Positions 8,488 through 11,575 of a stretch of DNA of 11,575 nucleotides are shown here, one piece after another (position 1 is the first letter of the stretch; each line of letters starts with the position of its first letter). A program made the position numbers and the translations under genes. Origin of the DNA: an uncultured Eubacterium sp. (GTDB lineage: Bacteria; Bacillota_A; Clostridia; Lachnospirales; Lachnospiraceae); the NCBI GenBank assembly GCA_947653505.1, contig CANTHI010000054.1, positions 1 through 11,575 on the forward strand. The letters run 5' to 3'. Under the pieces are notes generated by a model, which made no database searches, was not told the DNA's origin, and saw only the letters and a list, made by a program, of their open reading frames with translations.

Positions 8488-8516
8488 GAGTGTGTAATGC
8501 GGAAAGGAGGAATTTT

Positions 8517-8753
8517 TTGTCGACATTGGAAAAAACGATAGATTTGTTAGGCGGTCTGTCAGAAAATCAGATAGAAACAATCTATCGTTTTGTGCAGTTT
8601 TTAAGTACGCAGCCAGTTGTGGAAACACAGGATACGGCGGAGTCGCTGGAGGATATTTTTGATCAGATTGTAGGAGTTGTGCCGGATACGGGGAAGACAT
8701 TGGAAGATTACAGAAAGGAACGCATAAAAGAGCGGTATGAGGCTGTTAATTGA
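8517..8753 (+). CDS. Putative antitoxin of a PIN-domain toxin-antitoxin pair
   Basis: The 78-residue acidic protein begins STLEKTIDLLGGLSENQIETIYRFVQFLSTQ and ends in a basic TLEDYRKERIKERYEAVN segment. Small proteins of this build, a helical N-terminal DNA-binding or dimerisation half followed by a toxin-binding tail, commonly precede PIN toxins in Clostridia; I do not recognise a named family with certainty. The start is TTG at 8517, because AAAGGAGG (8503-8510) is 6 bases upstream. A GTG at 8490 opens the same frame, but would place the Shine-Dalgarno inside the gene. The last 17 bases overlap the next gene, so the two are translationally coupled. Antitoxins of this type usually repress their own promoter, but no clear promoter is seen here. 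Confidence 0.75.
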   Translation: MSTLEKTIDLLGGLSENQIETIYRFVQFLSTQPVVETQDTAESLEDIFDQIVGVVPDTGKTLEDYRKERIKERYEAVN

Positions 8754-9159
8754 TACAAATGTTATTCTGGATATGGTACTAAAGCGGAAAAATTGTAATG
8801 TCAGTATGGAGTTGTTTCGCAAAATCAGATTGTGTAAAATAACAGCATTTATAACAGCTTCATCTGTAACAGATTTATTTTACATGATTCGTAAAGAGAT
8901 ACATGATACGGATAAAACTTATATGATTATGGAAAATATTTTTAAATTAGCTGCAGTTTTTTCAGCAACAGAAAAAGATATTCAGGATGCTTTTAAAAGT
9001 AAATGGAAGGATTTTGAAGATTGTGTGCAGTATATGACAGGAAAAAACAATCAGGCAGATTATATTATCACTGTTAATCTGAAAGACTATCCGGAAACGA
9101 TCATACCTGTGCTGACACCAGCAGAATGTATTAAGAGGATGGATCAGAATATATTATAA
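8737..9159 (+). CDS. PIN-domain toxin (VapC-like ribonuclease)
   Basis: The 140-residue protein is a PIN-domain ribonuclease of toxin type. Acidic active-site residues are visible: Asp6 in LLIDTNVILD, Asp46 in ASSVTDLFYMIRK, the DFEDC cluster (92-96) followed by VQYMTG, and Asp108 in ADYIITVNLKDY. Such enzymes cleave RNA (often tRNA or rRNA) when the partner antitoxin is degraded. ATG at 8737 lies inside the antitoxin gene, and only a weak ribosome-binding site (AAAAGAG, 8726-8732) precedes it, which fits coupled translation. The gene is clearly more A/T-rich than rseP and ispG on either side, suggesting acquisition from elsewhere. RNA target unknown. Confidence 0.88.
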   Translation: MRLLIDTNVILDMVLKRKNCNVSMELFRKIRLCKITAFITASSVTDLFYMIRKEIHDTDKTYMIMENIFKLAAVFSATEKDIQDAFKSKWKDFEDCVQYMTGKNNQADYIITVNLKDYPETIIPVLTPAECIKRMDQNIL

Positions 9160-9227: not shown

Positions 9228-10306
9228 TGAAAAAGATGAAAAGAAAAATAACAAAAACAATACAGATCGGCAGCCATGTCATTGGCGGGGAAAATCCGGT
9301 TCTGATTCAGTCCATGACAAACACAAGGACAGAAGACAGCGCAGCGACAGTTGCGCAGATCCGGCAGCTGGCCGCGGCGGGATGTGATATTATCCGATGC
9401 AGTGTGCCGACGATGGAGGCGGCGGATGCCCTGACAGAGATTAAAAAACAGGTGGACATTCCGGTTGTGGCGGATATTCATTTCGATTACCGGCTTGCGA
9501 TTGCCGCGATTGAGCACGGAGCGGATAAAATACGGATCAATCCGGGAAATATCGGATCCAGGGAACGGGTAAAGGCAGTTGTGGACGCGGCGAAGGAACG
9601 CGGGATTCCGATCCGGGTCGGCGTAAACAGCGGTTCATTAGAGAAGGAACTGGTGGAAAAGTATCACGGAGTTACGGCAGAAGGGCTTGTGGAAAGCGCG
9701 CTGGGACAGGTGAAGCTGATCGAAGATCTGGGATATGACCGTCTGGTTATCAGCATCAAATCGTCTGATGTATTAATGTGCGTGCGTGCGCATGAACTGA
9801 TTTCTGATCAGACGGACTATCCGCTGCATGTGGGCATTACAGAAGCAGGGACGCTGCTCAGTGGAAATATCAAGTCGTCCATCGGTCTGGGTCTGATTCT
9901 GTATCAGGGTATCGGCGATACCGTTCGCGTTTCCCTGACAGGCGATCCGCTTGAAGAGGTAAAATCCGCAAAGCTGATTCTGCGTACGCTGGGTCTGCGC
10001 AAAGGAGGAATTGAGGTCGTATCCTGCCCGACGTGCGGGAGGACCAGAATCGATCTGATCGGGCTGGCAAATCAGGTGGAACAGATGGTAGCGGATATCC
10101 CGCTGGATCTGAAGGTCGCGGTGATGGGCTGCGTCGTGAACGGACCAGGCGAAGCAAAAGAAGCGGATATTGGCATCGCCGGAGGATGCGGGGAAGGGCT
10201 GCTGATCCGGCACGGAGAGGTCATCAAAAAACTGCCGGAAGAAGAGCTGCTGCCAGCGCTGCGGGAAGAGCTGCTGCACTGGGGTGAGAGCAGAAATGCA
10301 ACATAA
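9227..10306 (+). CDS. ispG: 4-hydroxy-3-methylbut-2-en-1-yl diphosphate synthase (GcpE)
   Basis: This iron-sulfur enzyme reductively converts 2-C-methyl-D-erythritol 2,4-cyclodiphosphate to HMBPP, the penultimate MEP-pathway step. The 359 residues show the TIM-barrel opening IQSMTNTRTEDSAATVAQI (27-45), VADIHFDYRLA (81-91), KIRINPGNIG (101-110), and the C-terminal [4Fe-4S] site: Cys267 and Cys270 in SCPTCGR, Cys302 and Glu309 in GCVVNGPGE. The start is GTG 9227 (AAGGAG at 9212-9217, 9-base spacer) or ATG 9236 (GGAAGG at 9222-9227, 8-base spacer); the sequence does not decide. Without the toxin-antitoxin insertion it would lie about 15 bases from rseP. A structured repeat begins 4 bases after its stop codon. 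Confidence 0.97.
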   Translation: MKKMKRKITKTIQIGSHVIGGENPVLIQSMTNTRTEDSAATVAQIRQLAAAGCDIIRCSVPTMEAADALTEIKKQVDIPVVADIHFDYRLAIAAIEHGADKIRINPGNIGSRERVKAVVDAAKERGIPIRVGVNSGSLEKELVEKYHGVTAEGLVESALGQVKLIEDLGYDRLVISIKSSDVLMCVRAHELISDQTDYPLHVGITEAGTLLSGNIKSSIGLGLILYQGIGDTVRVSLTGDPLEEVKSAKLILRTLGLRKGGIEVVSCPTCGRTRIDLIGLANQVEQMVADIPLDLKVAVMGCVVNGPGEAKEADIGIAGGCGEGLLIRHGEVIKKLPEEELLPALREELLHWGESRNAT

Positions 10307-10310
10307 GTGG

Positions 10311-10645
10311 GAATTTAAGAGCAAATGCAACAATATATATAAAAATGTTGCGTATTGGCTATCCGGACGCCGGATGGGAGGCGGTGGCCGGTCTGCCTGT
10401 TCCTGTTCCAGAATGTAAGAAGCTCCAGGTATTCTGCATCCAGTCTGTGGTACCGGACGGGCGCGCCACCTACTGCCCAATGGGGCACGCTGTCCGCTTC
10501 TGGCTGCCGCCAGCAGCTAAAGGTGCCGCTTCGGCTTCGCCGCCTGTGTATCGTGCAGAATACCAAGAGCTTCTAAACATTCTTCCAACGTCACAGGCAG
10601 ACCGGCCACCGCCTCCCATCCGGCTGGCTTTCAAAAGCTTTACAT
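10311..10645 (+). repeat. Structured interspersed repeat, copy 1
   Basis: This copy starts with GAATTTAAGAGCA, then a small hairpin (GCAACA/TGTTGC at 10327-10332/10346-10351 around an A/T loop), TATTGGCT and CGGAC. A very long hairpin (10369-10624) follows, then a tail at 10623-10645. The same order of elements occurs on the - strand at 11011-10846. The leader matches copy 2 at 46 of 58 positions with one gap, the block CCAGAATGTAAGAAGC (10408-10423) at 15 of 16, and the tail at 19 of 23. I do not recognise the family. It could be a miniature mobile element or a structured RNA. Confidence 0.7.
10369..10624. repeat. Long hairpin of repeat copy 1, with perfect 32-bp outer stem
   Basis: Bases 10369-10400 are exactly complementary to 10593-10624 (32 bp, G/C-rich). 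Pairing continues inward imperfectly, including AGAATGT against the right arm and a perfect 11-bp GGTATTCTGCA (10428-10438) with 10554-10564, for arms of about 70 bases. The loop (10439-10553) has smaller dyads such as TGCCC/GGGCA (10474-10478/10483-10487). Open frames across it are a by-product of the G/C-rich hairpin. Confidence 0.85.
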
Positions 10646-10819
10646 TCATTACATCGAAACTTCATGCAGAAATGGTTTACATTCATTACATTGAAACTTC
10701 ATGCAGAAATAATTTCACTCATTATGGCAAAACATCTTGCAGAAATGTTTACACTTATGATAGCGATACACCTTGCAGAAATGTTTTATGCTCATAATAG
10801 CAAAACATCATGTAGAAAT
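10639..10819. repeat. Degenerate 36-bp tandem array, five units
   Basis: The units are 10639-10675, 10676-10712, 10713-10747, 10748-10783 and 10784-10819 (37, 37, 35, 36, 36 bases). Each opens with TTT(A/C)-like sequence, continues as a CATTAT/CTCATTA-like middle and AAACATC, and closes with TGCAGAAAT (TGTAGAAAT in the last). Units 1 and 2 are nearly identical; the rest drift. No spacers separate the units, so it is not a CRISPR array. It lies between the tails of the two inverted repeat copies. Confidence 0.75.
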
Positions 10820-10845
10820 TCATACATCAACATTCCGGTAATCTG

Positions 10846-11011
10846 ATGTAATGCCTGTGAAAACCAGCTGGGAGAGGAACTTTGCCCCGTCTGCGGTGGC
10901 TTCTTGCATTCTGGAGCGGACACAGCAGACGGGGCAAAGTTCCTCTCCCAGCGTCCGCGCAGCCAATAAATAACACTTTTATATAAATTGTTACCCTCTG
11001 CTCTTAAGTTC
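10846..11011 (-). repeat. Structured interspersed repeat, copy 2 (inverted)
   Basis: Read on the - strand from 11011: GAACTTAAGAGCA, a small hairpin (GTAACA/TGTTAT) around an A/T loop, TATTGGCT, CGGACG, then a long hairpin (10952-10867) whose loop contains CCAGAATGCAAGAAGC, then the tail ending at 10846. It is shorter than copy 1 because its long hairpin lacks the extra inner part. Orientation is opposite to copy 1, tails facing. Confidence 0.7.
10867..10952. repeat. 28-bp perfect hairpin of repeat copy 2
   Basis: Bases 10867-10894 are exactly complementary to 10925-10952, with a 30-base loop (10895-10924). The stem sequence differs from that of copy 1, yet both keep full self-complementarity. 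There is no T-run after it on the + strand; the G/C-rich stem may still slow transcription towards polC. Confidence 0.9.
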
Positions 11012-11067
11012 GCCCATATGGGGAAGAACCTGTGCTGGAATGGGAAATTGTCAGGGAGTGATAAGGG

Positions 11068-11575
11068 ATGGAAAAAAATTTTTTTGAAGTATTTCCTGTT
11101 TTGAAAGTCAATACAGAGATGCAGCACCTGCTGGCAGATACGCAGGTGCAGCGGGTAGTATCGAACCCGTCACGCACGCGTCTTCGGGTATACCTGCATG
11201 GGACAAGGCTGATCCAGAAGAAACATATATTTCAGCTGGAAAAAAATATTAAAAACCAGCTGTTTCCGAAACAGGAGCTTACGGTAAAAATTATAGAGCG
11301 TTATCAGCTGTCCGGGCAGTATACGCCGCAGACGCTGATGGATATGTATAAAGACAGTATGCTGGAAGAAATGAAGGCATACAGTCTTTTAATTTATAAT
11401 CTGTTCCGCTGCGCCAGAATGGAATTTAACGGGCCGGAGCATATGAAGCTTTGTCTGGAGGATTCGGTCGTGGCGAGAAGCCGTGCGGATGAGCTGCTGG
11501 AAATTTTGTATAAGGTCATGCGTGACCGGTGCGGGATGAAGCTTACAATCGAACCGGTTTTTGAGCCGAAAAAGG
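11068..11575 (+). CDS. polC: DNA polymerase III PolC-type alpha subunit, N-terminal part (cut by window end)
   Basis: The first 169 codons of the Gram-positive replicative DNA polymerase are present; the full protein is usually about 1,400-1,500 residues. The N-terminal domain is recognised from MEKNFFEVFPVLKV, the basic RTRLRVYLHGTRLIQKKHIFQLEKNI stretch, EMKAYSLLIYNLFRCARMEF, and RDRCGMKLTIEPVFEPKK, which follow PolC N-termini from Clostridia and Bacilli. The OB-fold, exonuclease and polymerase domains would lie beyond the window. ATG at 11068 is preceded by AGGGAG (11053-11058) with a 9-base spacer. PolC commonly follows ispG in Firmicutes, but here 761 bases of repeats intervene and no strong promoter is evident nearby. 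Identification is firm for a partial gene. Confidence 0.93.
   Translation, partial: MEKNFFEVFPVLKVNTEMQHLLADTQVQRVVSNPSRTRLRVYLHGTRLIQKKHIFQLEKNIKNQLFPKQELTVKIIERYQLSGQYTPQTLMDMYKDSMLEEMKAYSLLIYNLFRCARMEFNGPEHMKLCLEDSVVARSRADELLEILYKVMRDRCGMKLTIEPVFEPKK

Follow-up and report, generated by a model that had tools for sequence, protein, structure and literature searches.

A Noncoding Repeat with Two Hairpin Ends, Related to the TwoAYGGAY RNA Family and Probably Mobile, in a Genus of Lachnospiraceae

Introduction

The closest described relative of the repeat discussed here is TwoAYGGAY (RF01731), an orphan RNA family listed since 2010. The available part of one source regards it as a probable RNA that is not cis-regulatory (PMC2864571), Rfam types it as Cis-reg, and the available passages of another source propose that it is a CsrA-binding sRNA whose external stem is "not well conserved" (PMC4333381). 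In the literature passages at hand that name TwoAYGGAY, no description of it as a repeat or as a mobile element was found.

Two groups of mobile sequences are also relevant. IS66 elements have, according to the text available from PMC11946415, ends that start with GTAAGCG and 8-bp repeats. As for the REPs, the part of Di Nocera 2013 (PMC3733652) available to us defines the GTAG type by a Y1 (RAYT) gene flanked by the repeat, and describes the CGTC-tagged type as having no dedicated transposase and as occurring mostly as HH dimers, with heterodimers in several families.

The DNA considered in this work, hereafter the window, is a stretch of 11,575 nucleotides from an uncultured Eubacterium sp. 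of the Lachnospiraceae (contig CANTHI010000054.1). A preliminary description, made from the letters alone, had noticed two inverted copies of a structured repeat near its end, and had offered three options: a structured RNA, a hairpin-ended mobile element, or a single-strand-transposed element. Our analysis favors the second of these, and we give a probability of roughly 0.6 to the reading that the block represents an aged member of a non-autonomous, hairpin-ended, transposon-like (MITE-like) repeat family belonging to one Lachnospiraceae genus. The element seems to be noncoding.

Locus and Anatomy of the Element

The block is located between ispG, which ends at 10306, and polC, which starts at 11068, and it has the matching inverted ends that had been ascribed to it: the arms 10302-10323/10999-11020 are 82% complementary, and the arms 10329-10396/10925-10992 are 72% complementary. 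Its features are the following.

10302..11020, no strand: whole element, from outermost to outermost inverted repeat (10311-11011 in the preliminary description, plus a few bases)
10327..10351, plus: left end, small hairpin GCAACA-n13-TGTTGC, whose counterpart in relatives is GTAACAGTTCAGATAGGGTGTTAC
10353..10369, plus: TATTGGCTATC and the CGGACG tag at the stem foot
10369..10400, plus: long stem of the left half, 5' arm, type B-like by eye
10404..10589, minus: conserved core of the left half, a relative of TwoAYGGAY in Rfam, with 39.3 bits against a cut-off of 43
10593..10624, plus: long stem of the left half, 3' arm, perfect complement of 10369-10400
10625..10866, no strand: spacer between the halves
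10867..10894, plus: long stem of the right half, inner arm, type A-like by eye
10899..10920, minus: loop of the right half, core remnant CCAGAATGCAAGAAGC
10925..10952, plus: long stem of the right half, outer arm
10952..10968, minus: CGTCC tag and AGCCAATA, mirror of TATTGGCT..GGACG
10970..10994, minus: right end, small hairpin GTAACA..TGTTAT

The left half is composed, in order, of the small hairpin, TATTGGCT, CGGACG, and a 32-bp perfect stem that encloses a branched core, while the right half has the mirror-image order, with a 28-bp perfect stem and a 22-nt loop instead of the core. Both stems (10369-10400 with 10593-10624, and 10867-10894 with 10925-10952) are thus as perfect as first reported, and the statement that the two halves follow the same plan holds for the order of their parts; the halves are nevertheless unequal, with copy 2 keeping a remnant of the core only. 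Comparison with the family, whose 131 unique, full-length halves include the left half of the window, shows the loop to be a remnant. The change from a C-G pair to T-A in the small hairpin, cited earlier as compensatory, is real, with the outermost pair of copy 2 being G-T only.

The predicted folds are very stable, with z -12.7 for the left half (0/100 shuffles as stable) and z -7.25 for the right half (0/200 shuffles). Much of the spacer, at 10634-10819, is occupied by direct repeats with a spacing of ~37 nt and the core CATGCAGAAAT. No target duplication flanks the window copy, whose right end reads GTAAC and whose left end reads GCAAC. Elsewhere in the window, between rseP and ispG (8490-9159), there are two small genes that we take to be an antitoxin/PIN-domain toxin-like pair, the second of which starts with MRLLIDTNVILDMV.

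Relatives of the Host and Insertion of the Element

The host was placed by means of its IspG, for which L001 was the closest sequence (92% identical) among the best 80 of 386 relatives. Searches with the block in the genomes of three relatives gave at least 72, at least 62, and 0 matches, and at E 1e-6 further copies are present in 10/13 genomes of L001's genus. Seven of these genomes have at least 72, 68, 64, 60, 51, 49, and 27 matches, and the other three have 9, 2, and 1; these counts are not copy numbers, as up to 40 candidates were scored in each genome and a single copy can yield several matches, pieces included. Phages and plasmids gave no match at E 0.01, and the two patterns searched in viral contigs gave no exact match.

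The gap between ispG and polC was compared across the 13 genus genomes, as the preliminary description had proposed for close relatives, and the element is absent from it in all of them. The gap measures about 10 to 130 nt in 11 genomes (G002 among them) and 464 nt in L001, where a copy lies upstream of ispG instead, while in G011 it holds two unrelated genes (L172 933-2817), one of them with what we take to be a DGQHR stretch. The block is therefore an insertion relative to its kin, with the relatives being too distant to give its exact borders.

Halves, Pairs, and Stem Types

A profile of the halves gave 163 half matches in 92 sequences (some of the loci overlapping), 137 of them full length and 131 unique. 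A complete half consists of a ~30-bp stem around a conserved core of ~160 nt, for a total of ~260 nt, and 128 of the 131 full halves carry GGACG at the stem foot. Taking as a pair a plus half followed by a minus half, we counted 41 distinct complete pairs, the share of which is biased upward because many loci were chosen for their visible pairs. Close halves are convergent, and full halves in any other order are absent within 1.6 kb in the raw list.

The spacers of the 41 pairs range from 57 to 1161 nt and are similar in 18/820 spacer pairs. None of the 41 elements is contained in a long ORF, and the longest stop-free stretch of the spacer is at most 106 aa in 40 of them and 162 aa in the other one. 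A protein-coding reading was rejected in view of these short stretches and of the three ORFs across the block, none of which has a Pfam match over the cut-off. The genes flanking 36/41 elements are arranged as 13 ++, 10 --, 7 -+, and 6 +-, with no clear excess of convergent genes. A reading as terminator or promoter was discarded, such sites occurring near the chance number, and the matches to Rfam microRNAs, all far below the cut-off, were taken as those that any long hairpin would give.

Within a genome, the stems fall into two types, A and B, and in the two well-sampled genomes an element usually has one of each: 15/16 elements in G008 (p 0.0002) and 10/11 in G001 (p 0.005), i.e., 25/27 overall. 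Smaller sets gave 3/4 (G011), 3/3 (G010), and 2/4 (G006), none of them significant, and the G006 clusters, of 16 and 2 halves (the two divergent ones only), are weak ground for the A/B rule. A permutation test had suggested mutual avoidance between the two stems of an element, for which the simpler reading is that there are two end types, with left and right arbitrary. The cores are more alike within an element than between elements (0.106 versus 0.125 permuted, 0/2000 as low).

Other arrangements occur as well. G011 has short derivatives of about 190-350 bp whose cores are lost or fused, like the right half in the window. For ten halves of G006 a partner was sought on the inner side and none was found within 3.5-13.7 kb; two of these ten resemble, by eye, collapsed hairpins flanked by an outer end on each side. 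Two halves of the same genome, L140 3038-3296 and L137 2528-2783, have a divergent stem and core, and the core of L140 contains CCACGGACGG, in agreement with the AYGGAY motif missing from nearly all other halves. In the flanks of L125, L122, and L121, the outermost ~25 nt of the half (TGGCTTCGCGGACGCC and similar) stand in tandem just outside some elements.

Pairing and Covariation

The stems of diverging copies keep their pairing, and the covariation that the preliminary description proposed to test is strong. In 24 diverse halves, 96.3% of the cells pair; changes on both sides occur in 53/85 pairs, and covariation is 0.373 versus 0.131 when shuffled, with none of 500 shuffles or slid versions reaching the measured values, counts that are inflated because the structure was derived from the same alignment and the copies are related. 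The core also covaries, in 14/25 pairs of helix 2 and 4/9 pairs of helix 5.

Stems could be parsed singly in 104/131 halves, with the ends trimmed to matching runs and the window's left half among the 27 unparsed ones. In these 104 stems, Watson-Crick pairs make up 3262 of the 3336 ungapped positions, 24 positions are other mismatches, and there are 6 gaps, and on the strand that reads GGACG first there are 14 G-U versus 36 A-C, the latter being G-U on the other strand, that of the Rfam family. This near-perfect pairing, with few wobbles, is found despite arms that differ between copies, by 12-26% within one cluster of one genome.

Such stems would be expected if template switching at quasi-palindromes during replication kept them perfect and the structure itself had no role, an explanation that is compatible with a mobile element and that is also in keeping with the greater likeness of cores within an element. 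We consider it unlikely as the full account, since core helices with internal loops and branches covary, the tag outside the stem is conserved, the mismatches are strand-asymmetric, and related cores exist in other genera. It does bear on the earlier suggestion that structure is under selection: pairing is maintained and family-wide covariation is strong; selection on an RNA may be the cause, but arm-to-arm copying of this kind could have the same effect.

The asymmetry was also examined on the Rfam strand for all 131 halves, at positions that are at least 75% Watson-Crick, where the three helix groups have G-U:A-C ratios of 64:26, 61:14, and 37:14 (the copies not being independent). Among the positions excluded by the 75% rule, two lean in the opposite direction (A-C 40 and 54) and one in the same direction (G-U 39), and at two positions of the stem base pairing is very rare. 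The bias could be explained if the Rfam strand folds, be it RNA or single-stranded DNA, or if mutation is strand-biased.

Relation to TwoAYGGAY

The core in the window falls below the gathering cut-off of RF01731, and among 20 loci of the genus only L129 exceeds it, at 45.1 bits. In the reverse direction, model R1, built from 23 genus cores only (the window copy included, which it matches at 10407-10584 minus), found the same place and strand at 12/30 Rfam-type loci of other genomes, with rough E-values from 1.8e-7 to 2.9e-4; it gave no match on that strand at 18/30, among them L291, the best Rfam match. Taken together, these matches show that the core and TwoAYGGAY share ancestry, and hence the family, described at first as unrecognized, is not wholly so.

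Across the family, RF01731 itself exceeds its cut-off in 11/80 genomes, with 1 to at least 30 matches per genome and at least 6 in eight of them; G011, which carries the genus variant, has none under the stricter filters of this 80-genome search. Most of the Rfam-type loci examined are single long hairpins, the outer stems of which vary between copies and are largely complementary. Inverted pairs are seen at 2/3 Rfam-type loci of G021, with outer ends that look GGACG-like by eye, and at L298 a second copy lies at a distance of about 1.1 kb, as a mirror image of the first. In two genomes, TwoAYGGAY matches (L302 1231-1341 and L314 1962-2042) lie near S10-Clostridia ribosomal leaders.

The homology raises the question of whether the element is simply a functional structured RNA, e.g., a CsrA-binding or regulatory one, that is kept by the host and merely repeated. 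The CsrA proposal of PMC4333381 speaks for this explanation, as does the excess of G-U over A-C on the Rfam strand, both in the helix groups and in the singly parsed stems (36:14), which one would expect if that strand folded; the two excluded positions that lean to A-C speak against it. On the other hand, AYGGAY, on which the CsrA proposal is based, is present in 3/131 cores, and the same simple scan detects it at least once in 13/20 Rfam-type matches and not at all in 7/20. Moreover, there are many copies per genome, in inverted pairs, some of which have target duplications, and promoter- and terminator-like sites are about as frequent as chance would give. A host-kept RNA is for these reasons an improbable account of the whole element. 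Repetition, mirror-image pairing, and target duplications favor instead a mobile element, of which an RNA used by the host or by the element itself could also be part.

Ends, Target Duplications, and Candidate Transposases

In G007, G010, and G011 the halves are preceded by a terminal hairpin like GTAACAGTTCAGATAGGGTGTTACA, decayed in the window, and intact ends read GTAACAG...CTGTTAC. With two mismatches allowed, the pattern of this hairpin occurs 181 times in G011, 10 times in G007, and 8 times in G006; G008 and G010 have 2 occurrences apiece and the other eight genus genomes have none, and in the family sample it is confined to 1/397 genomes, namely G011. The GTAACA end is absent or rare in G001, G002, G006, and G008.

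Exact 8-bp direct repeats stand immediately outside 3/23 two-ended elements (AATCATTG, TCAAAACG, and CTTAAGAG), and two further elements have 7/8 repeats, one of them of low complexity; with mispaired flanks, 0.0 exact repeats and 0.14 at 7/8 are expected. The other 20 elements have no exact duplication, and none of the 23 has exact duplications of any other length from 3 to 12. Duplications of 8 bp point to a DDE enzyme.

Regarding the enzyme, IS66 transposases (PF03050) exceed the cut-off in 4/13 genus genomes, G002 has one match below it, and seven genomes have none, including the copy-rich G001, G008, G010, and G011; intact IS66 frames are present in the copy-rich G005. The IS66 copies read in G004 (several) and in G005 (one, L252) have GTAA ends with a different following sequence, and no autonomous copy that shares the ends of the element was found among the 13 genomes. 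The G004 genome, which includes a 6.3-Mb contig, has 91 IS66 and 54 Y1 transposase matches, yet only two element matches, and transposase matches are few in most of the copy-rich genomes. No match to a described IS-derived element was obtained, an outcome that the preliminary description had left open, and the ends are nevertheless IS66-like.

Y1 transposases do not track the element: none was found in the copy-rich G002, those of G006, G010, and G011 have stops or are fragments, and halves lie near 1/30 Y1 loci (L387), on one side. It is quite doubtful that the element is a giant analogue of REPs and REPINs, in which a Y1 (RAYT-like) transposase would mobilize head-to-head heterodimers of tagged hairpins in the form of single-stranded DNA. 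The near-invariant GGACG at the foot of the hairpin (CGTCC when the complementary strand is read), the outside position of the tags, the two stem types, and the heterodimers without dedicated transposase of the CGTC-tagged REPs all recall such a system, but the 8-bp duplications count against it, the halves are far longer than REPs, and, as the available text of PMC3733652 reads, the tag and the CCA tail are on swapped sides of the hairpin.

Proposed Mechanism and Implications

The hairpin-ended mobile element is the best of the three options first offered, given its many copies, the gaps without it in the relatives, its convergent ends, and the 8-bp duplications of some relatives. According to the model that we propose, the two structured ends of a complete copy converge and usually belong to different stem types, each with the GGACG tag, an end-specific stem, and a TwoAYGGAY-related core, to which some genomes add a terminal hairpin starting with GTAACA. 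A transposase acting in trans would cut at the GTAACA ends and insert the element between genes; we infer it to be IS66-like because of the GTAA ends and the 8-bp duplications, and, as no autonomous relative was found, it is a putative enzyme. The long hairpins would be retained since recognition or propagation requires that one strand fold at each end, in the form of single-stranded DNA or of a transcript directed outward, and the stems may differ to ensure that an arm pairs within its own end and not with the other one.

TwoAYGGAY may then be part of an element that spreads in genomes, and not (only) a regulatory RNA. More tentatively, and with somewhat less than even confidence, it could represent the folded terminus of noncoding mobile elements that form a widespread class in the Lachnospiraceae; in this class the two arms of a hairpin would change in concert, and in one genus the ends of an element would be marked by hairpins of two types. 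The orphan family would gain a different and testable identity, as a mobile repeat, and a label of cis-regulatory RNA on such copies could mislead annotation. A noncoding bacterial element with two distinct, co-varying hairpin ends of ~260 nt also offers a natural case in which to compare DNA folding, RNA folding, and arm-to-arm copying as possible keepers of perfect long palindromes in bacteria.

Comparison with Known Systems

The likeness to TwoAYGGAY extends to the pattern of core helices, the internal branching, the variable long outer stem, the strand, the covariance-model matches in both directions, and the several to many matches per genome. It differs in that the genus copies are mostly seen as ends of a paired element and rarely carry AYGGAY.

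With the IS66 family and its miniature derivatives some relatives of the window copy share ends that begin with GTAA and 8-bp duplications; in the window copy itself, the right end alone begins in this way. In contrast, the element has no internal transposase, its terminal sequence is unlike the IS66 ends in G004 and G005, and several copy-rich genomes lack an IS66 match.

CGTC-tagged REPs and REPINs resemble it in their tagged hairpins, the conserved foot tag being outside in dimers as GGACG is in the convergent pairs here, in their head-to-head pairs, often of two types, and in their many intergenic copies. The REP monomer, of 20-40 bp with a stem of 8-9 bp, is several times smaller than the halves, with their stems of ~31 bp and their elaborate core, and no linked RAYT gene was found for the element.

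Foldback-type elements and MITEs in general are noncoding, with inverted ends and many copies, as is the case here; the difference is that the two ends of this element form separate hairpins, each of which covaries and has a distinct stem sequence. In sum, it is a new and elaborate variant of noncoding mobile repeat, related by descent to TwoAYGGAY, that resembles IS66 MITEs and REPINs without membership of either being implied.
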